Shown here: positions 2,232 through 22,911 of the stretch, one piece after another
Layout: each line of letters starts with the position of its first letter
Position numbering within the stretch: position 1 is the first letter of the stretch
Virus record (IMG/VR): IMGVR_UViG_3300045243_000020
Coordinates: 1-26,243 of that record
Direction: 5' to 3' (one strand)
DNA from: a virus
DNA length: 26,243 nt
Notes under the pieces: model-generated
Databases searched by the model: none
What the model was told of the DNA's origin: nothing
The model's input: the letters and a program-made list of their open reading frames with translations, nothing else
Translations under genes and position numbers: made by a program

Positions 2232-2264
2232 CAGTTGACAAATAACAAGTGTGCAACTTAATAT
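2232..2264 (+). promoter_or_regulatory. Rightward sigma70-like promoter with operator
   Basis: TTGACA (2235-2240) and TAATAT (2259-2264) are 18 bases apart. Transcription would begin near 2271, upstream of the ATG at 2296. Bases 2232-2251, read on the minus strand, match the operator at 2027-2046 at 17 of 20 positions, and again overlap the -35 box. The two divergent operons are therefore likely controlled by the same protein. Confidence 0.65.
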
Positions 2265-2295
2265 TCCGTATCCTACAACACTTGAGGACAAAACT

Positions 2296-2736
2296 ATGGG
2301 CGGAGATTATCATCTGGCGCATAATTATGTGTGCCGCGCAGTCAAGAAAGGATTGCTGCCAGACCTCAAAAAACTAACAGTAAAATGCTTTGATTGCGGT
2401 TCGCGTGCTACTGTATTCGATCATAGGGACTATTCGCGGTTTTTAGATGTTGAGCCCGTGTGTCAAAGCTGCAATATAAAGCGCGGCAAAGCAAAAAAAG
2501 AGAAAAAGGGGAAATACGAAATAGTCAGAAAAGAACCAAGACAAGAGCGGGCTGATATGAAAAGAATGAAGTCGGCCGCACAAGCTGCCGCGCAGTGGAG
2601 TTGTTCCGCTGTGTGGGTGCGCCGGTTATGCCAGCACGGGAGAATACGTGAGGCAATCAAGGTAGGCCGAGATTGGGTAATGCCGAAAAATGCAGAATAC
2701 CCGCGCCTCTACAAGCGCGGACGGAAACCGGCATGA
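2296..2736 (+). CDS. HNH-like zinc-finger protein fused to an excisionase-like HTH (146 aa)
   Basis: The ATG at 2296 has GAGG eight bases upstream and lies downstream of the predicted transcription start. An in-frame GTG at 2251 lies upstream of that start and is rejected. Residues 31-60 hold CFDC, DHRDY and CQSCN, the arrangement of HNH/treble-clef zinc proteins common in phages. A Lys-rich linker (63-90) leads to a helix-turn-helix segment at about 92-130 (SAAQAAAQWSCSAVWVRRLC) ending in GRDWVMP, the look of MerR/excisionase-type DNA-binding domains. I infer a DNA-binding or nuclease accessory role. The catalytic HNH histidine pair is not fully clear, so nuclease activity is uncertain. First gene of the rightward early operon. 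Confidence 0.8.
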   Translation: MGGDYHLAHNYVCRAVKKGLLPDLKKLTVKCFDCGSRATVFDHRDYSRFLDVEPVCQSCNIKRGKAKKEKKGKYEIVRKEPRQERADMKRMKSAAQAAAQWSCSAVWVRRLCQHGRIREAIKVGRDWVMPKNAEYPRLYKRGRKPA

Positions 2737-2939: not shown

Positions 2940-3214
2940 AAAACGACATCCCGCCGCTGCTCATGCGCCTCGGGCCGCTGACTCTCGACCAGCTCGGCGT
3001 GGAATTGGGCGGGCCGCACGAGCGCACGCTGCGACGGCAACGCGCCGCGCAACCCAAGACTGCTGCTCTCATGCCGGTATGGTTGTACCCAGGCGCTGCG
3101 GCAATCCCTGCTGGCGGAACGCGGCGAACGGTTCTGCTGGCCGGGTGGCAGGCGCCGATTTCGGGATTCGCGGCAAGTATGAAAGGCGATCCGCTGCCCT
3201 ACGGAGAACCGTGA
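2936..3214 (+). CDS. Possible winged-helix-like protein, GTG start (92 aa)
   Basis: A GTG at 2936 overlaps the previous stop by four bases (GTGA), which supports coupling. Residues 1-35 (IPPLLMRLGPLTLDQLGVEL) look like a winged-helix beginning in which 'GPLTLDQL' forms the second helix. The remaining 55 residues are Pro/Gly/Ala-rich and less convincing, so the end of the gene may be degraded or frameshifted. In another frame the DNA of the second half also stays open for about 40 codons. Treat the N-terminal third as likely and the rest as doubtful. Confidence 0.4.
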   Translation: MKNDIPPLLMRLGPLTLDQLGVELGGPHERTLRRQRAAQPKTAALMPVWLYPGAAAIPAGGTRRTVLLAGWQAPISGFAASMKGDPLPYGEP

Positions 3215-3841
3215 ATATGCAGATTGGACTTTTGCGGAAAACCGTGTGTATCCTACAAACAACAGCGCCCCAAGGACTCGCATCCCTGGGGCGCCTAATC
3301 TCCAGTGTCTGTTGCCGCAGGCCACCGGAACAATGCCGCAATTCTACGGCGTTCCGCCCAAAAAGCGCAAGACCTTGGCGTACTCCGCACGAAAGCAGGC
3401 GGGTTGTCGTCCCGGCTCGGAGCATGAAAGCGATGCGCTTTGCTGGACCGGCCGGCGCAGGCGGACTTTGCCAGGTATCGCCACAAACAGGTTCCCACGT
3501 AAGAAGCGACTGGCCCACGATACGGGCACCTGCAAGACGAATGGCAGCCGAGAGGCAGGAAGCTACGGCTTCAACACCGCAACCCCAGGAAGGTCCGGTG
3601 CGGCCGGTCCTATGGCCGAGTGCTAAACTGCGCCCCAACCGGCGCGCGGCGGTTCCCTCCCCACAGCCGGCCAGGCCCCGGATTTAACGGAGCTCGCGTA
3701 CCGTCTGGGGCCGACTAGAACGCTCGACCGCGCGGCTTTTCTCCTATCGCCGTGCTGGAAAAGCTAGGCCGGGGTCGGGCGTGACGTTCGCCCCGGCCGC
3801 CTACGCATGGAACCGCTCAATTTTCGTGTGCGATTTGCAAA
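3215..3841. other. Long ORF-poor, hairpin-dense region
   Basis: Frames on both strands stay open because the DNA is GC-rich, but their products are low-complexity Arg/Pro/Ser sequences with no domain, no plausible start and no ribosome binding site. The region instead carries many short hairpins on the plus strand. They include GGAAC..GTTCC with GCCG/CGGC (3327-3355), GCAT/ATGC (3422-3436), CAGGT/ACCTG enclosing GCCC/GGGC (3488-3532), GAAGC-TACG-GCTTC with a UNCG-type tetraloop (3559-3572), CGGCC/GGCCG (3601-3618), GCGCC/GGCGC (3630-3645), GCTTTTC/GAAAAGC (3735-3764) and GGCCGGGG/CCCCGGCC (3767-3798). It may encode a structured RNA. Confidence 0.5.
3245..3356 (+). repeat. Structured intergenic element, copy 1
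   Basis: Aligns over about 110 bases with 21995-22110 (copy 2). Shared blocks include TGTGTA, TACAA, CGCCCC, AGGA, TCCC, GGGCGCC, GTGTC, CGCA, GGCCAC, GAAC, TCTA and CGTT. The core hairpin at 3265-3294 has arms GCGCCCC/GGGGCGC and an inner stem GGA/TCC. A second hairpin covers 3327-3355. It starts about 30 bases after the stop at 3214. Type, strand and function are inferred. Confidence 0.55.
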
Positions 3842-4247: not shown

Positions 4248-5140
4248 TCGTCGAAGTCCTTGCGCAGATTGGAAACGGGCGCGGTCTTGATGATCTCTGC
4301 ATACTGGCCGGTAATGCGGCTGTAGCGCAGCGTTGCAAGTCCGATTCTGCCGATATGCCGGAACCGGACTTTCTGGACGTGAATATCAACCTCGGCAGAG
4401 TCCTCAGCCTGATCGCGCCATACCGTGATGCAGTTGTCTGCCTTGTTCCAGAAATGTGCCGAGCCTGATACGTCGCTTGGCGTGGGGACCGGCAGTTTCC
4501 CGGTGGCGCGGTCACGGAACATCTTCGCCGGGTGCGCAACGAGCCATACGTGAATATTCGCTTCCCGGCAGACGCGAATTAGTTCAGATAATTCGAGGCT
4601 TATCCATTCCGTCTCACTCATTCCTTGAATTCTGAAATGTTCCAGTTGGTTCCACGGATCGACCACTACCCCGACGTTGTAACTGCGCACCGTTGAAGGC
4701 GGGTACTGAAAATGCGTCACCGCCTCTTGCAGGATCGAAACCAGGTCGGGCTTTTCAGGCTTGGCGAAGTTGAACTTCCCCCGCAACCATTCTTCGCCTT
4801 CCTCGACATCTTCGGGGTTCATGCGCGGGGTCAATCCTGGGTTGAACGGCTTGCCCAGGTACTTTTCGAGCAGGGTCGAATGGTGCAGAGCCAGCGGCCA
4901 GTTCTCCGGACTGTAGATGATGAATTTCCACTCGCTGCGCTTGGCGAGATTCACCAGCAGCGCATCGAGCCAATTCGACTTGCCGCTTGCGGGTGTTCCG
5001 GTAATCAGCGTCCATTGCCCCATCGCCACGGTGTAGAGCTTATCCACGCTCGGCCAGCCGGTAGAGCAGCCTTTGGGGAAACCACCATCCTCGTAAAGCC
5101 TGATAACCTCGGCGCGGATTTGATCGTGCGGAATTATCAT
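4244..5140 (-). CDS. DnaB/Twinkle-type replicative helicase, RecA-fold ATPase (298 aa)
   Basis: A RecA-fold ATPase. Walker A is GTPASGKS at residues 48-55, Walker B is VGVVVDP ending at Asp161-Pro162, and a sensor-type VAHP is at 201-204. A Lys/Arg-containing strand (VQKVRFRHIG, about 256-265) fits the position of the arginine-finger loop of hexameric helicases. The N-terminus 'STGWPSVDKLYTV' matches the start of the DnaB/Twinkle C-terminal domain. At 298 residues it lacks both a primase domain and the DnaB N-terminal domain, so it is a helicase-only form. It probably unwinds phage DNA after loading by the DUF1376 protein encoded upstream, whose stop overlaps its start by four bases. Confidence 0.92.
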   Translation of the reverse strand: MIIPHDQIRAEVIRLYEDGGFPKGCSTGWPSVDKLYTVAMGQWTLITGTPASGKSNWLDALLVNLAKRSEWKFIIYSPENWPLALHHSTLLEKYLGKPFNPGLTPRMNPEDVEEGEEWLRGKFNFAKPEKPDLVSILQEAVTHFQYPPSTVRSYNVGVVVDPWNQLEHFRIQGMSETEWISLELSELIRVCREANIHVWLVAHPAKMFRDRATGKLPVPTPSDVSGSAHFWNKADNCITVWRDQAEDSAEVDIHVQKVRFRHIGRIGLATLRYSRITGQYAEIIKTAPVSNLRKDFDE

Positions 5141-6372: not shown

Positions 6373-6485
6373 CTTTTTGCGCTATAGTTGCGCTGTGCGT
6401 CCCGACGGGGGCGCGCATGTTGTTCCCAGGCCGCCGGCGGCGCTCGTATCGCTGCTGGCGCCTTCAACCCATACGAGGGGTTCCC

Positions 6486-6854
6486 ATGGAAAACAAGCAG
6501 TGGGTGATCTACGCTATCTTGGACGAAGATGGCGTGCCGGTGTACGTCGGTTGTACGAGCGAATTAAAAACCAGAGCGAAGCAACACAAGTGCGCAAGTG
6601 ATAACCGGGAGTTGCGGCAGTGGATACGTTCGCGTCCTTGTCCGCCGGTATATGCCGTAGTCGGTCTGATTAGCGACCGCGACAAGGCGCTGAGAATCGA
6701 GCTTGCGTATATTCGATCGCTGCTGCCTGAATTCAACAAGAACGCGGGGCCTGGGAGCAGGGCAAGAAGCGGAATTGACATGCGGCGGAAAATGAGTAAG
6801 AGTAGATCGCATGAAGTGGTGCGCCAACTGCCAGCAGAAGCTCTCGGTGACTAA
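6486..6854 (+). CDS. GIY-YIG domain protein, putative nuclease (122 aa)
   Basis: The ATG at 6486 follows AGGGG. A longer frame to 6417 adds a basic, unlikely tail. The GIY-YIG layout is visible: VIY at residues 7-9, YVG at 20-22, Arg30 in LKTRAKQHK, a catalytic-position Glu72 in RIELAYI, and an Asn at 86 in FNKNAG. The domain fills residues 5-88, and the C-terminal 30 residues are Arg/Lys/Ser-rich. Such single-domain proteins may be homing or repair-type nucleases. It begins the rightward transcript leaving the origin and overlaps the next gene by 44 bases. Confidence 0.82.
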   Translation: MENKQWVIYAILDEDGVPVYVGCTSELKTRAKQHKCASDNRELRQWIRSRPCPPVYAVVGLISDRDKALRIELAYIRSLLPEFNKNAGPGSRARSGIDMRRKMSKSRSHEVVRQLPAEALGD

Positions 6855-6999: not shown

Positions 7000-7433
7000 G
7001 TGGACGATGGATGAGCGACGCGCAGTACGAGGCCCATCAGCGCAAATTCGGCAAGGTGTCGCTCGTCACGCTGGCGGCGAAGGCGAGCTTGGCGCCGGTG
7101 AAGTGCGCAACCCGCAGCGAGCTCGAGGCCGAGCTTGAGCGGCAAATCACCGAGGCCGGGATCGAAGGCGCGCAGTTTGATGTTCCCTATCTCGTTGGCA
7201 GCCGTTGCCGTGCGGACGTTTTGTTCCAGGCGCAGCGCCTTGTCGTGGAGGCGCAAGGCGGCTGCCACGTCGTGCGGGCGAAGGCGCACGCGGACATCAA
7301 CAAAGCCGCGCTGTCTCTCTTGCAAGGATGGCGCCTCTTGCCGGTGGACAAGGAGGCGATACGAAGCGGCCAGGCGCTTACCTGGATCAAGCAACTTTTG
7401 AAAGGAGGATGCAATGGAAAAGACGCTGCATAA
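6996..7433 (+). CDS. PD-(D/E)XK-type endonuclease-like protein (145 aa)
   Basis: The GTG at 6996 overlaps the previous stop (GTGA) and has GAGGAAGG seven bases upstream. An ATG at 7011 is the alternative. The C-terminal 90 residues resemble the Vsr/DUF559-like nuclease fold: RADVLF supplies an Asp, VVEAQGG the E-x-Q in place of E-x-K, then NKAALSLLQGWRLLPV and SGQALTWIKQLL. This order matches a common phage family that reads 'VE.(D/E)GG...D..K.n.A...GW.v.r...v.sG'. It may cut branched or foreign DNA. The Gln in place of Lys leaves catalysis uncertain. Confidence 0.75.
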   Translation: MSGRWMSDAQYEAHQRKFGKVSLVTLAAKASLAPVKCATRSELEAELERQITEAGIEGAQFDVPYLVGSRCRADVLFQAQRLVVEAQGGCHVVRAKAHADINKAALSLLQGWRLLPVDKEAIRSGQALTWIKQLLKGGCNGKDAA

Positions 7434-7692
7434 CAGTGATGTGAGCGGCACGAAGGTGAACGTGCCGGACGTAAAAGTGGTCGGCAACGGCGATATGTTC
7501 CGTCTGCTGTGCAAGGCGAGCAGCAAGGCCGAAGGCTGGATGAAAAGCTGCAAGGCGATGCAAGTGCCGGGCGGCTGCGTGGTGCAGGTAACAACGCAGC
7601 AGGGGGATAACGTGGCCGAGGCGTTGTGCTTTGTTCCTGGAGTCGTCATTGAGGATGACGTCAACAGCGGGCGCAAACTCGTATCGGCATAG
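7414..7692 (+). CDS. Phage protein of unknown function (92 aa)
   Basis: AAAGGAGG stands just upstream of the ATG at 7414, so the start is secure even though it overlaps the nuclease-like gene by 20 bases. The protein is beta-rich and soluble (VSGTKVNVPDVKVVGNGDMF), with a helical centre (LLCKASSKAEGWMKSCKAM) and three Cys in all. I do not recognise a family. The consistent spacing with its neighbours suggests a shared transcript. Confidence 0.8.
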   Translation: MEKTLHNSDVSGTKVNVPDVKVVGNGDMFRLLCKASSKAEGWMKSCKAMQVPGGCVVQVTTQQGDNVAEALCFVPGVVIEDDVNSGRKLVSA

Positions 7693-8873: not shown

Positions 8874-9470
8874 ATGTCAACATTGCAAGAAAAAGAAGCT
8901 CGTGACCAAAATATCGCAGTGTTATTCAGGCATGGAGTGAGCCAGCCAATTATTGCCGCGCAGTTGCATCTTACGCGACAACGCGTTAGTCAAATTCTGC
9001 TGCGAAAGTTTAGCTTGGATTCAAAATCCGGCGGCCAGCATTTGCTTGCACTAAGAAAAAAGTCCGAAGCGCGTAAGGCTTTCCGAAAAAAAACAAGTGT
9101 CACGTTGGAGCAGTGGAAATTCCTAACGCTGAATGGCGTAACTAGAAAATATAGAAATCAACAGAGCGGAGCCAAAGCCCGCGGAATAGCATTCAATCTG
9201 TCATTGGCGCAATTTTGGAAAATATGGTGCGAGTCAGGCAAGTTTGCGGAGCGCGGGAGGGGAGCGGATAAATATTGCATGGCTAGATTTCTGGATAAAG
9301 GGCCGTATGAAATTGGGAACGTGAAGATAATAACCAATCGAGAAAACTCGTCAGAAAGAGAAAAAAATAAGCGTTTATTGCAATTTAAACGACGTAGGAG
9401 TAACGTGCGCTCTTTCAAGTCATTGAAAGTTAGCGCAAATGGCGAAGCGCGGCGCCCCGCTCGGAAATAA
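8874..9470 (+). CDS. HTH plus phage HNH-like protein, stand-alone mobile-type gene (198 aa)
   Basis: Residues 12-45 form a helix-turn-helix (IAVLFRHGVSQPIIAAQLHL then TRQRVSQILLRKF), like DNA-binding regions of sigma-type or homing-nuclease accessory domains. Residues 85-180 follow a phage HNH-like pattern: SGAKARGIAFNLSLAQFWKI, W.ESGKFAERGRGADKYCM, ARFLDKGPYEIGNVKIIT and NRENSSEREKN. Catalytic status is unclear. The DNA is AT-richer, with many A-runs, than the flanking genes, which suggests later acquisition. Its 3' end overlaps the next gene by 32 bases, and no clear ribosome binding site precedes the ATG. Confidence 0.75.
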   Translation: MSTLQEKEARDQNIAVLFRHGVSQPIIAAQLHLTRQRVSQILLRKFSLDSKSGGQHLLALRKKSEARKAFRKKTSVTLEQWKFLTLNGVTRKYRNQQSGAKARGIAFNLSLAQFWKIWCESGKFAERGRGADKYCMARFLDKGPYEIGNVKIITNRENSSEREKNKRLLQFKRRRSNVRSFKSLKVSANGEARRPARK

Positions 9471-15360: not shown

Positions 15361-16575
15361 ATGTCCAACGTTTTAGTCACGTCAAGTCTGGTGGCGAAGG
15401 AAGCGCTCGCCGTCCTCAAAAACATGCTCACATTCTCGGCCGCGGTCAACCGCGACTATGAGGACGAGTACGCGAGCAACATGAGCCGGGGCTATGCGCC
15501 AGGCGCCACGATCAACATCAAGCGTCCGCCGCGCTACACCTACCGCGCGGGCAGAGTCGCGGCGCCCCAGACCACGGTGGAAACGACGATTCCGCTGACG
15601 GTCAGTCAAGGCGGTTGCGATATTTTCTTCAACTCGTTCGAGCGCACGCTGTCGCTTACGCAGTTTGAAAAGAAGGTACGCGCCGCGATGGCGCCGGTTG
15701 CGAACGAGATCGATCGCCAAGGCTTGCAGCTCGCCCACTTTGCCACGTACAACACGCTGAATCCGACCGGCGCGCTGCCGACGACGCAGGCGCTTGCGAT
15801 CAACGCGCTGACGAGCATCAATCAGAGGTTGGACGAAATGGCGGCGCCCGTCAAGGATGGCAACCGCTACGTGGTAATGAACCCGGCGCTCAATGGCGCC
15901 ATGATCCAGGGCTTCGCCGGCCTGTTCAACATGCAGGAGAGGATTAGCGGCCAATACCGCACCGGCTACATGCAGGACTCGTTCGGCATCCATCCGAACA
16001 TGGATCAGAACGTGGACGTGCATACGAACGGCGCGGGCACGGCATCCAACATCAACGGCGCGAATCAAGTCGGATCGACGATTACGGTGGCCGCAACCGG
16101 CGCGGGCACGATCACGCGTGGCACCACGATTACCCTGCCTGGCGTCTTTGCGGTCAACCCGCAGTCGCGCACGTCAACCGGCGCTCTTGCCAATTTCGTG
16201 ATTACCGCCGACGTGGCGCAGGGCGCGGTATCGCTGCCGATTTCACCGGCAATCGTGACCTCTGGGCCGTTCCAAAATGTCACGGCTTCGCCGACTACCG
16301 CGCAGCCGTTCGTCATTCTCGGCGCCGCAAGCACGGCGTATTCGACGAACATCGGGTTCCATCAGGACGCGTTCACGCTGGCGATGGTGCCTTTATATGA
16401 ACCACCGGCAACTGGCGTGATGTCCGTGAAGCAGGTTTCCGATGAAGGATTCCGACTTCGCGTGCTGGAGTACTTCGATGGCGCGCAGGATATCGCCAAC
16501 ATGCGGATAGATATTCTTTTTGGATGGGCGGCAACTTATCCCGAGTTATCGGTACGCTACTTCACAATCCCTTAA
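15361..16575 (+). CDS. P22-family major coat protein (404 aa)
   Basis: Begins MSNVLVTSSLVAKEALAVLK and continues NRDYEDEYASNMSRGYAPGA and NIKRPPRYTYRAG, the N-terminal arm and first strands of P22-type coat proteins ('..it.eaL.vLknnl.f...v.rdye..f.....G.tI.ikrP..y..r.G'). The C-terminus LRVLEYFDGAQDIANMRIDI is also typical. At 404 residues it is close to P22 coat (430). A Thr/Gly-rich middle (about 230-300) probably corresponds to an inserted domain. GGAAGGA precedes the ATG. Its stop overlaps the stop of the convergent HNH gene. Confidence 0.95.
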   Translation: MSNVLVTSSLVAKEALAVLKNMLTFSAAVNRDYEDEYASNMSRGYAPGATINIKRPPRYTYRAGRVAAPQTTVETTIPLTVSQGGCDIFFNSFERTLSLTQFEKKVRAAMAPVANEIDRQGLQLAHFATYNTLNPTGALPTTQALAINALTSINQRLDEMAAPVKDGNRYVVMNPALNGAMIQGFAGLFNMQERISGQYRTGYMQDSFGIHPNMDQNVDVHTNGAGTASNINGANQVGSTITVAATGAGTITRGTTITLPGVFAVNPQSRTSTGALANFVITADVAQGAVSLPISPAIVTSGPFQNVTASPTTAQPFVILGAASTAYSTNIGFHQDAFTLAMVPLYEPPATGVMSVKQVSDEGFRLRVLEYFDGAQDIANMRIDILFGWAATYPELSVRYFTIP

Positions 16576-17063
16576 AGCGTGTTCCCTTCGTGGTATTTGC
16601 GCTTTTTTTCGAGATAGACAGCATGAGCTTCTTCTGGCGTGTCGTAAGTTCCAAGCCATACGCGCTTGCCGTCGATCTTAATTTGTGCGCCAAAGCGTGC
16701 GCGATTCGGAGTCACGCCAATGAATTTCAGCCGGTTAGCTTTTGTCGGTCCCTGTCTGTTTTGCTGATTTACTTGATGTGGAACATCGCGCAAATTGGAA
16801 AAGCGATTGTCTGCCATGTTTCCGTTGCGATGGTCAACATCATGTTTCGGCCATTCTCCAGTCACGTACAACCACGCGAGCCGATGCGCTTTGTAGGGGT
16901 GATTGTTGATGTTCACAAGGACTCTGCCGTCATTAGCCACGTATCCGGAAACGCTTCCAGCGCACACACCTCCTGCGGTGCGCAGGCGTGTAAAAACTCC
17001 GGTATCCGGATTGTAGTGCAGCAACTCGCGCAGGCGTTCGGCAGTAAGATTGCGGTCAATCAT
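16572..17063 (-). CDS. HNH endonuclease with AP2 domain, probable homing type (163 aa)
   Basis: The only sizeable minus-strand gene inside the late operon. Residues 1-35 resemble the small N-terminal domain of these nucleases (MIDRNLTAERLRELLHYNPD). The HNH_3-type core lies at about 58-100: AHRLAWLYVTGEWP, DVDHRNGNMADNRFSNLR. The AP2-type DNA-binding domain lies at about 113-155: FIGVTPNRARFGAQIKIDGK, RVWLGTYDTPEEAHAVY. AGAGG precedes the ATG. Antisense insertion directly behind the coat gene is typical of free-standing homing endonucleases that target conserved virion genes. The stop codons overlap (TTAA). Confidence 0.92.
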   Translation of the reverse strand: MIDRNLTAERLRELLHYNPDTGVFTRLRTAGGVCAGSVSGYVANDGRVLVNINNHPYKAHRLAWLYVTGEWPKHDVDHRNGNMADNRFSNLRDVPHQVNQQNRQGPTKANRLKFIGVTPNRARFGAQIKIDGKRVWLGTYDTPEEAHAVYLEKKRKYHEGNTL

Positions 17064-20482: not shown

Positions 20483-21970
20483 ATGGCTGCAAACACGTTC
20501 AGCGCACTGACCAATCCGACGCCTTCGGCGACGATGGGCGGGATGCAACAACCTCAAGCCGCTCCCACAGGGCCAGGAACAGGCACTTGGTCTAATCCTT
20601 CTGGCGCTTCCCCGGAGTTTATGAAAGTCTTGCAGATGATTCAAACGCAAGACCCGATGCTCCAATTTGCCGATCCGAATGTTGTTCAAGCTGTTTATCA
20701 GTTTGTAAACAACTCTCCTAAAACTGGCGGCGGCGGATTCGGCAGTTTCCTTTCCGACACGTTCCGCAACACCGCGCCGGTAGCGGCCATGATTGGCGGC
20801 GGCGTCCTCGGCAGCGTGGCAGGCCCGGCCCTTGGCGAGTTTTTGGGGGGCGCAGGGGAACTTGCAGGCGGTGCCGGCGGTGCCGGCGGTGCGGTTGGTG
20901 GTTATGGTGCCGGTGCCGGCACGCTGGAGGCCGCGAATGCGGTAGGCGCGGCCGGAGGCGATGCGCTTGGATCATTCATCGGCGGCAATACCGCGAATTG
21001 GGGTCTTGACGCCGCTACCGCAGGGGCATTAGGTGGTGCCGCTGGTGGGCTCGTGGCGCAAGCAGCCCCTGGTGCTGCTAGCGATGCCGGGCTATCGACT
21101 GCTGCCAACGCCTCGGCGCAGGGTTTGCCGGCCGCTGCTGCGCCCGCAGCATTGGCGGCAGCAAAGGCAGGCGGTGCAGGGGAAGCCTTGAACCGCATCA
21201 TTGCCGGCACCGGCACGCCGGGCGATTACCTGACGCTCGGCATCCCGGCCACAGGCGCCATTGCGTCGCTGCTGGCCGGCGCCAACGCGAGCAATGCCAG
21301 CAGCAAGGCGGCGCAGGCGCAGGAGCAGGCCGCGCAGGCGGCGATCGCCGAGCAGCGCAGGCAGTTCGACGTGACGCAGGCGAACAACGCGCCATTCCTT
21401 GCTACGGGCACCGCGGCCAATGCGCGCCTGTCTCAGTTGCTCGGCACGGCGCCGGGTTACACCGGTTCGGACGCGGGCTCGCTGACGAAGCCGTTTACCT
21501 CGGCGGACTTGAACGCCGATCCGGTCTACAACTCCGGGCTCCAGTTTGGGCTGGATCAGGGCACAAAGGCGATCAACGCGCGAGCGATCGCCGGCGGGAA
21601 TTACGATTCTGGCGCTACCTTGAAGGCGCTGACGCAGTTCGGGAACGACTACGGCTCGACCAAGGCGAATGATTCGTTCAATAGGTATCAGACGCAGCAG
21701 GGGAACACGTTTAACCGGCTGAGCGGGGTCTCTGGGACCGGGCAGACAGCGGTCGGGCAGGTGGCGCAGGCGGGCACGAACGCGGCGAACACCGTCTCCG
21801 GGCTGCTGACAGATCAGGGCACGGCGCGTTCGGCGGGCATTGTTGGTGGCAGCAATGCCTTTACCAATGCCGCCGGAAATATCAACTCGCTGGCGAACAA
21901 TTTCAGCAGCAACGCGACCTTGCAGGCGCTTTTGGCGCAGCGGCAACCGACTTACTTCGCAAACGGGTGA
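20483..21970 (+). CDS. Internal virion / DNA-ejection-type protein (495 aa)
   Basis: The N-terminal 90 residues are Pro/Gln-rich and helical (MKVLQMIQTQDPMLQFADPN). Residues 95-260 are Gly/Ala-rich and weakly hydrophobic, able to insert into membranes. Residues 265-325 are an Ala/Gln coiled coil, then FDVTQANNAPFLATGTAANA and the ARAIAGGNYDSGATLKALTQ, FGNDYGSTKANDSF, RYQTQQGNTFNRLSG series. This C-terminal pattern is shared by phage 'DNA transfer' proteins ejected ahead of the genome. I infer an ejection role like P22 gp7/gp20/gp16, with which it shares gene order but little visible sequence. Confidence 0.8.
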   Translation: MAANTFSALTNPTPSATMGGMQQPQAAPTGPGTGTWSNPSGASPEFMKVLQMIQTQDPMLQFADPNVVQAVYQFVNNSPKTGGGGFGSFLSDTFRNTAPVAAMIGGGVLGSVAGPALGEFLGGAGELAGGAGGAGGAVGGYGAGAGTLEAANAVGAAGGDALGSFIGGNTANWGLDAATAGALGGAAGGLVAQAAPGAASDAGLSTAANASAQGLPAAAAPAALAAAKAGGAGEALNRIIAGTGTPGDYLTLGIPATGAIASLLAGANASNASSKAAQAQEQAAQAAIAEQRRQFDVTQANNAPFLATGTAANARLSQLLGTAPGYTGSDAGSLTKPFTSADLNADPVYNSGLQFGLDQGTKAINARAIAGGNYDSGATLKALTQFGNDYGSTKANDSFNRYQTQQGNTFNRLSGVSGTGQTAVGQVAQAGTNAANTVSGLLTDQGTARSAGIVGGSNAFTNAAGNINSLANNFSSNATLQALLAQRQPTYFANG

Positions 21971-21994
21971 CTCTGTTGACAACCTTTGAGGCAA

Positions 21995-22110
21995 TGTGTA
22001 GCGTTACAAGTAACGACGCCCCGAGGAGTTGCTTCCCCAGGGCGCCAAATCCTGTGTCAGTTCGCACCTGGCCACAGAACCATGTCCGAAGTCTAAAGTC
22101 GTTTTCCGGG
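21995..22110 (+). repeat. Structured intergenic element, copy 2
   Basis: Homologous to 3245-3356. The core hairpin (22017-22044) pairs CGCCC with GGGCG and an inner GGA with TCC. An A-T pair in copy 1 (CCCC-A-AGGA ... TCCC-T) is replaced by G-C here (CCCC-G-AGGA ... TCCC-C), a compensatory change. TTGACA at 21976 may be a -35 box. It lies between the stop at 21970 and the GIY-YIG gene at 22135. Confidence 0.55.
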
Positions 22111-22134
22111 TGCGTCAACTGCCACAATTTCAGA

Positions 22135-22911
22135 ATGGGTGAAATTATGGCATTCATGGATCCGTCTACGGCGTGCGTTGTGTATAGGCTTACATCTCCG
22201 AGTGGAAAAAAATATATAGGTATTTCCACTTTGGGCGTTGCTCGAAGAATCTCATATCATAAAGATCAAGCAGGCTGTATTAACCGCAAATATCTAATCC
22301 ATGTTGCAATTGCAAAATATGGACTGGAAAACTTTGTAGTAGAAGAGGTTTTAAGGGGAACATTAGAAGAGTGCAGGAATATGGAAATAAGGTTAATCCG
22401 AGAAGAACATACGCGAGCACCGGAAGGATACAACTGCACTGACGGCGGAGATGGATGCCGTGGATTGACCGTGAGCGATGCCACAAAAGAAAAACTTCGT
22501 GTTGCCAATTTGGGAAAGAAGCAATCAATAGAGACGATAGAAAAAAGGCGTATTTCCACAACCGGAAAGAAACGCTCGGCTGAGTTTTGCGCAAACTTAG
22601 GCGACAGAATGCGCGGGAGACAAAAAAGCGAGCAAGAACGCATCAATTTGAGAGAAGGAGGTAAAAAACGAGCGGCTGATCCGGTCGAGCGGGCTAGATT
22701 GCTTTTTATGGTATGTCATCCAACGGATGCAACAAAAGAGAAAATGAGGCTTGCAAAAATAGGGAGAAAACCTTCTGAGGAAACCCTGAAAAAAAGAAGT
22801 ACATCTTTAAAGAAAACATGGGAAGACCCGCAGCGTCGCGCGACTATGAGCGCACGTGTTAAGGCGCAATGGGCAGAACGCAAAGCAAAGGGGTTGTCAT
22901 GGGCCAGCTAA
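22135..22911 (+). CDS. GIY-YIG homing endonuclease with NUMOD3 motifs (258 aa)
   Basis: Start candidates are ATG 22135 and ATG 22147. The nuclease domain spans about residues 10-95: VVYRLTSPSGKKYIG gives the GIY and YIG motifs, Arg follows in VARRISYH, the catalytic Glu lies in NMEIRLIREE, and an Asn in YNCTDGG. Behind it come at least two NUMOD3-type DNA-binding repeats (TKEKLRVANLGKKQSIETIE, and TKEKMRLAKIGRKPSEETLK) and a basic tail. Codon use is much more AT-rich than in the flanking genes, indicating acquisition. Its stop overlaps the next gene by 13 bases and supplies that gene's ribosome binding site (AGGGG). Confidence 0.93.
   Translation: MGEIMAFMDPSTACVVYRLTSPSGKKYIGISTLGVARRISYHKDQAGCINRKYLIHVAIAKYGLENFVVEEVLRGTLEECRNMEIRLIREEHTRAPEGYNCTDGGDGCRGLTVSDATKEKLRVANLGKKQSIETIEKRRISTTGKKRSAEFCANLGDRMRGRQKSEQERINLREGGKKRAADPVERARLLFMVCHPTDATKEKMRLAKIGRKPSEETLKKRSTSLKKTWEDPQRRATMSARVKAQWAERKAKGLSWAS

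Follow-up and report, generated by a model that had tools for sequence, protein, structure and literature searches.

The window, the whole 26,243-bp stretch of virus-record DNA that we analysed, is a contig of an uncultivated phage; it encodes a P22-type portal and a stabilisation protein that shares ~33% identity with its counterpart in Rhodoferax phage P26218. Two segments of the window resemble each other, and each starts soon after a plus-strand stop codon, as the first-pass annotation had stated. The similarity that it saw between 3245–3356 (copy 1) and 21995–22110 (copy 2) is borne out: the best local alignment joins ~3228–3354 to 21982–22103 in the same orientation with a score of 46, compared with a maximum of 22 in 1,000 shuffles (mean 10.5, sd 1.75). 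No third copy elsewhere in the 26,243-bp window comes near the alignment score of this pair. Copy 2 lies ahead of a gene for a GIY-YIG homing endonuclease, which has phage matches at ~27–39% identity and a GC content of 45%, against 58% for the window; no close relative of its protein was found in IMG/VR. The features of both loci are collected in the table.

Table. Features of the two loci. Promoter-like sites, hairpins and RNA ends are predicted; promoter scores are matches out of 12.
Feature	Position	Strand	Basis
sRNA2 (copy 2), ~80-nt two-hairpin RNA	22006..22085	-	fold z -3.94; 24/24 pairs kept with two homologues
sRNA2 promoter-like site, TTGACG-17-TAGACT	22090..22118	-	promoter scan, 9/12
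sRNA2 hairpin 1, GC/A internal loop, CAG/CUG inner stem	22048..22081	-	fold, pair comparison
sRNA2 terminator hairpin (13 bp) and U-rich tail	22006..22046	-	terminator scan, fold
sRNA1 (copy 1), ~82-nt two-hairpin RNA	3255..3336	-	fold z -4.13; 53.9 bits, E 7e-16 (rough) from sRNA2-only model
sRNA1 promoter-like site, TTGCGC-18-TAGAAT	3341..3370	-	8/12; good -10, weak -35
sRNA1 hairpin 1, inner stem CUG/CAG	3300..3330	-	fold
sRNA1 terminator hairpin (13-14 bp) and tail GUUGUUUGU	3255..3295	-	terminator scan, fold
Opposing promoter-like site, TTGACA-17-TAGCGT, into sRNA2 complement	21976..22004	+	9/12; predicted
Opposing promoter-like site, TGGACT-18-TATCCT, into sRNA1 complement	3225..3254	+	8/12, weak; predicted
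Foreign insert (~925 bp) with sRNA2 and homing gene, between two structural-region genes	21971..22898	+	site empty in L007 and further contigs
GIY-YIG homing endonuclease gene, Seg-like, with repeats that resemble NUMOD3 by eye	22147..22911	+	PHROG 314, E 5e-26
Replaced segment with sRNA1	3033..3615		comparison with relatives

Both copies sit in exchanged DNA, as indicated by empty or replaced segments in relatives. Several IMG/VR contigs are 91–100% identical to the window in a structural protein, and near relatives lack both sRNA-bearing segments, which supports the association with foreign DNA suggested earlier. The right-hand insert lies between the stop of the gene at 20483–21970 and the start of the next gene, a site that is empty in relatives such as L007 (AACGGGTGATTCCATGGGCC). 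On the left, 3033–3615 takes the place of what in relatives is the remainder of an HTH-like gene plus a C-5 cytosine methyltransferase. A close relative that is 99.7% identical just downstream (L003) has other cargo at the sRNA2 site, a minus-strand HTH-like ORF of 118 aa (4505–4915), so the site is an insertion hotspot. A sister copy of sRNA1 exists in the contig L071, whose first bases fall within copy 1 and which is 99.8% identical to the window as far as 3805; the same contig has an extra ~750 bp (512–1297) between the equivalents of window positions 3805 and 3842. Just before that point, window 3615–3806 is non-coding, ~82% conserved in relatives and ends in a strong hairpin symmetric on both strands (~3769–3803), probably a bidirectional terminator between convergent gene blocks.

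Elsewhere, the window holds further homing-type genes, at 16572–17063 (minus; HNH_3 and AP2-like domain) and 6417–6854 (plus; a second GIY-YIG), and HNH-like proteins at 2251–2736 (plus; with an excisionase-like HTH) and 8874–9470 (plus). These additional HNH and GIY-YIG genes make the phage rich in mobile endonucleases. An ORF of 92 aa with no family match, at 7414–7692, is probably mobile as well, given its different position in the relative L004 (2951–3216, after the portal gene).

Judged by folding models, both segments appear to be diverged copies of a gene for a ~80-nt RNA on the minus strand, opposite to the strand first assumed. We place the RNA there because G·U pairs take the place of mismatches, because the copies share a two-hairpin fold with strong z scores, and because a shared TCTA block, which the first-pass annotation had listed and which is indeed present, reads on the minus strand as a −10 box. 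That annotation had described a CGCCC/GGGCG stem with a GGA/TCC inner stem, a conserved A-C mismatch, and an A-T pair in one copy that is G-C in the other. Both stems and the compensatory pair are confirmed, and the mismatch is seen in both copies on the plus strand but is a G·U pair on the minus strand. Its broader claim of a structured RNA under selection for pairing is supported by kept pairs and compensatory changes, with the correction that the strand is minus, not plus. More generally, when A-C mismatches are conserved on one strand, they can be a sign that the opposite strand encodes an RNA.

The minus-strand folds of sRNA1 and sRNA2 have the same design. In transcript order, 5′ CAUUGUUC is followed by hairpin 1 (8–9 bp, containing a GC/A internal loop and an inner stem of 3 bp), a short GAUU linker, a GC-rich terminator hairpin of 13–14 bp and a U-rich tail in which the U-run is broken (GUUGUUUGU). 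Over the RNA units, z scores on the minus strand are −4.13 for sRNA1, −3.94 for sRNA2 and −4.55 for a third homologue, L103, described below, versus −3.28, −1.29 and −2.79 on the plus strand; longer stretches give −4.27 (minus) versus −3.34 (plus) for copy 1 and −2.73 (minus) versus 0.05 (plus) for 126 nt of copy 2. When helices are mapped between the two window copies, 22 of 22 minus-strand pairs are kept despite 10 substitutions, compared with 19/22 and 18/22 on the plus strand; the simulated probability of such survival is 5e-5, for a structure that had been taken from these same sequences. The inner stem of hairpin 1, CUG/CAG in sRNA1 and CAG/CUG in sRNA2, is a second compensatory region.

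The terminator scan finds a terminator-like match on the minus strand in all three copies, and each also has a predicted promoter-like site, matching at 10 of 12 positions in L103, 9 in copy 2 and 8 in copy 1, where the −35 is poor. Among random 46-nt stretches of the window, 9.6% reach 8/12 and 1.7% reach 9/12, and the site of sRNA1 was not picked up by a stricter promoter scan. Together, these predictions make it very probable that each copy is a free-standing minus-strand small-RNA gene, with a sigma-70-type promoter, a ~80-nt transcript and a U-rich 3′ tail.

The third homologue came from an IMG/VR scan with the hairpin 1 pattern, which returned 25 contigs, all but one of them chance matches. 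The true relative, L103 (contig IMGVR_UViG_3300031669_000043, 50,164 bp; RNA at 2169–2090, minus strand), aligns with the two window copies at scores of 42 and 36. A covariance model built from sRNA2 alone and its structure gives L103 58.4 bits (E 2e-17) and sRNA1 53.9 bits, with the E-values of such home-made models being rough; sRNA2 scores 97.5 bits with model R3, in which it is itself included. L103 has a promoter-like site, TTGACA-17-TAGACT, and a minus-strand terminator. Where the inner stem reads CUG/CAG or CAG/CUG in the window copies, it reads CGA/UCG in L103, and at the base of the terminator stem L103 has AGAGCC in place of the GGCGCC of the window.

The L103 phage has none of the tested main genes in common with the window, to which it is linked by no more than 30 matching residues in one small ORF, and its ParB-like protein is nearest to that of Burkholderia phage AH2, of the Casjensviridae. 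Its RNA stands between a short plus-strand ORF (stop at 2065) and the ParB-like gene, which follows after ~290 bases, and no homing gene lies directly beside it. The proposal that the element is the end of a mobile element is therefore not supported: with a third copy in an unrelated phage without an adjoining homing gene, the RNA seems rather to be a small part that phages can exchange. Since it is found in unrelated phages, the cassette has probably been exchanged between them as a small accessory module. On the plus side of the RNA, ~290 bases lack a convincing gene both in the window (3337–3626) and in L103 (2205–2490); the two stretches have no clear mutual sequence similarity and no clear structure. 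The block after copy 1, once described as hairpin-dense, has no structure beyond its composition (z +0.40), is non-coding by codon use and has no family match, and the matching L103 stretch is weakly structured (z −1.46).

Other searches returned little. With blastn, copy 1, copy 2 and L103 had no real match in phages or plasmids, nor did copy 1 have one in E. coli genomes. Scanning IMG/VR for the hairpin and linker as written on the plus strand gave chance matches only, and two further pattern scans gave the sister copy in L071 plus chance matches. GTDB pattern scans yielded 0 matches in one case and 8 chance matches without the second hairpin in another. A covariance search of 399 Pseudomonadota genomes, of low sensitivity, found none. 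GC-rich terminators in bacterial genomes produce a background of up to ~33 bits in such searches, so the weak matches L123, L127 and L130–L132 were left uncounted. Exact-pattern scans miss most homologues at ~70% identity, and the few matches do not prove that the element is rare.

The covariance test that had been suggested earlier, carried out with the third homologue, supports the RNA reading. All 24 pairs are standard in all three sequences, and 6 are changed on both sides, three of them in hairpin 1. The shuffle mean for both-side changes is 2.3, and 1 of 500 shuffles reaches 6; at most 5 of 500 reach any covariation measure, and no both-side-changed pairs are left when partners are slid by 1–3 columns. 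These values come from three sequences only, in an alignment fitted to the structure. Conservation is uneven: 32 of 48 stem columns and 7 of 9 tail columns are invariant, compared with 1 of 15 in the hairpin loops, and the unpaired 5′ end is conserved like the tail.

A plus-strand transcript across the element, as an antisense partner, is possible: promoter-like sites facing into the complement of the RNA stand at the homologous place in all three copies, matching at 8, 9 and 9 of 12 positions, although these sites are homologous and hence not independent. We therefore considered a model in which the sRNA acts on an opposing transcript in the manner of the FinP/RepX and OOP/Sar classes, a tentative proposal whose chances we put slightly below even. 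Host RNA polymerase would make the sRNA, and the opposing promoter, at the terminator end of the sRNA gene, would drive a plus transcript that opens with ~80 nt perfectly complementary to the sRNA. The amount of this opposing transcript would then fall, either because the two RNAs pair loop to loop and form a duplex or because the promoters interfere. At copy 2 this transcript would be the leader of the GIY-YIG homing gene, which sRNA2 would keep quiet, and sRNA1 may be similar enough to pair with the copy-2 leader in trans: that duplex is predicted at −101.8 kcal/mol, versus −77.6 for the best of 200 shuffles. If the target of the RNA is its own complement, varying loops with kept stems and tail are what would be expected. 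Against a shared cis target, the opposing strand has no obvious gene directly downstream at copy 1 or at L103, and hence no single cis target is common to the copies. The opposing promoters are also weaker than the best sRNA promoters, and sRNA2 would not cover the ribosome-binding site of the homing gene, as its 5′ end (22085) lies 62 nt upstream of the ATG at 22147. None of the six phage records tested encodes a ProQ/FinO-domain protein (PF04352); the host may supply one.

The main rival is a trans-acting phage sRNA that pairs with host mRNAs or with other phage mRNAs, or sequesters a host RNA-binding protein (Hfq, ProQ), the opposing promoters being accidental and the neighbours irrelevant. 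We regard this as a substantial possibility, if one we would not bet on. The three contexts, unrelated to one another (next to a homing gene, within an ORF-poor block, and between a short ORF and a ParB-like gene), the strong promoter-like site in L103, and the conserved unpaired 5′ end and tail all agree with it, and phage sRNAs of this size include trans regulators (PMC12197685). However, conservation is lowest in the hairpin loops, where seed regions usually lie, and a crude screen of the window gene starts gave no target common to both copies. A further idea, which we consider unlikely, is that the gene is mobile cargo, an "RNA moron" moving between unrelated phages, and that the two differing window copies are a cross-talking pair with specificity set by the freely varying loops; if so, it might act in trans to restrain, for example, homing endonucleases or rival phages.

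Readings that dispense with a minus-strand regulator fare worse. Copy 2 does precede a GIY-YIG gene, and hairpins before free-standing homing genes are known (I-TevI, segB and Aeh1 mobE in T4-type phages; PMC2988022), as would suit a plus-strand RNA leader controlling the homing gene. That reading, proposed at first, now seems improbable, as the minus strand folds better in all three copies, with mismatches becoming G·U pairs, copy 1 and L103 adjoin no homing gene, and the RNA that covaries stands apart on the minus strand, where it has a promoter-like site and a terminator of its own. We give equally little credence to a bidirectional or antisense terminator with flanks and no functional RNA: hairpin 2 is a good minus-strand terminator, but hairpin 1, the internal loop and the −10 box are conserved too, and hairpin 1, needless for a terminator, covaries. 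Least credible by far is a protein encoded through the element on the plus strand. Open frames do cross all three copies (21967–22911, 3246–3626 and L103 2075–2497), yet copy 2 and L103 differ at all three codon positions (7, 9 and 12 mismatches of ~38 each), indels shift the frame in copy 1, and codon use around copy 1 is non-coding. Taken whole, a free-standing minus-strand sRNA gene with FinP/RepX- and OOP/Sar-like antisense action is the best explanation, and we think it rather likelier right than wrong.

On the present sequence comparisons, the element represents a new family within a known kind of RNA: it is a predicted phage-borne two-hairpin small RNA and is absent from Rfam. No Rfam 15 family matches the window at gathering score (0 matches), relaxed thresholds give nothing convincing, and the group I intron and HEARO (omega RNA) models find no match even at a relaxed E-value. 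RAGATH-23 (RF03099) matches copy 2 and L103 weakly on the same strand, with the same order of hairpin, AGGAUU linker and hairpin, but at 14.7 and 15.9 bits (E-values 2 and 1) versus a gathering score of 92.6; membership was rejected on these scores, far below threshold. For phage biology, the family would be an additional small RNA, backed by compensatory changes among three sequences that come from two unrelated phages, and its precise start, end and strand coordinates make it readily testable.

In architecture, the RNA resembles FinP of F-like plasmids and RepX of IncQ plasmids: two stem-loops, a joint of a few nucleotides, a 3′ uridine-rich or single-stranded tail and a length of about 75–80 nt. 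It differs in that no sequence relationship is shown, in being phage-borne, and in that sRNA2 misses the translation start of the opposing gene, which RNAs of the FinP/RepX type cover. OOP and Sar, by comparison, are transcribed from their own promoter to their own terminator, against the direction of the two co-oriented genes that flank them, and they overlap the coding region or start site of their target. In the present case, by contrast, 36–41 nt separate the end of the RNA from the upstream stop codon, and 62 nt separate its start from the downstream start codon. FinP (79 nt) and RepX (75 nt) are encoded opposite the leader of another transcript (PMC8136791), and lambda OOP RNA and P22 Sar RNA are phage antisense RNAs of 68–77 nt (PMC12197685). 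In the lytic cyanophage S-PM2, the antisense RNA CfrI lies opposite a homing endonuclease gene and psbA (PMC2984593). CfrI is ~225 nt long and connects both genes, whereas the RNA here is ~80 nt, structured, and also occurs without a homing gene. At copy 2, it may nonetheless be directed, as an antisense RNA, at a free-standing homing endonuclease, comparable to CfrI in cyanophage.
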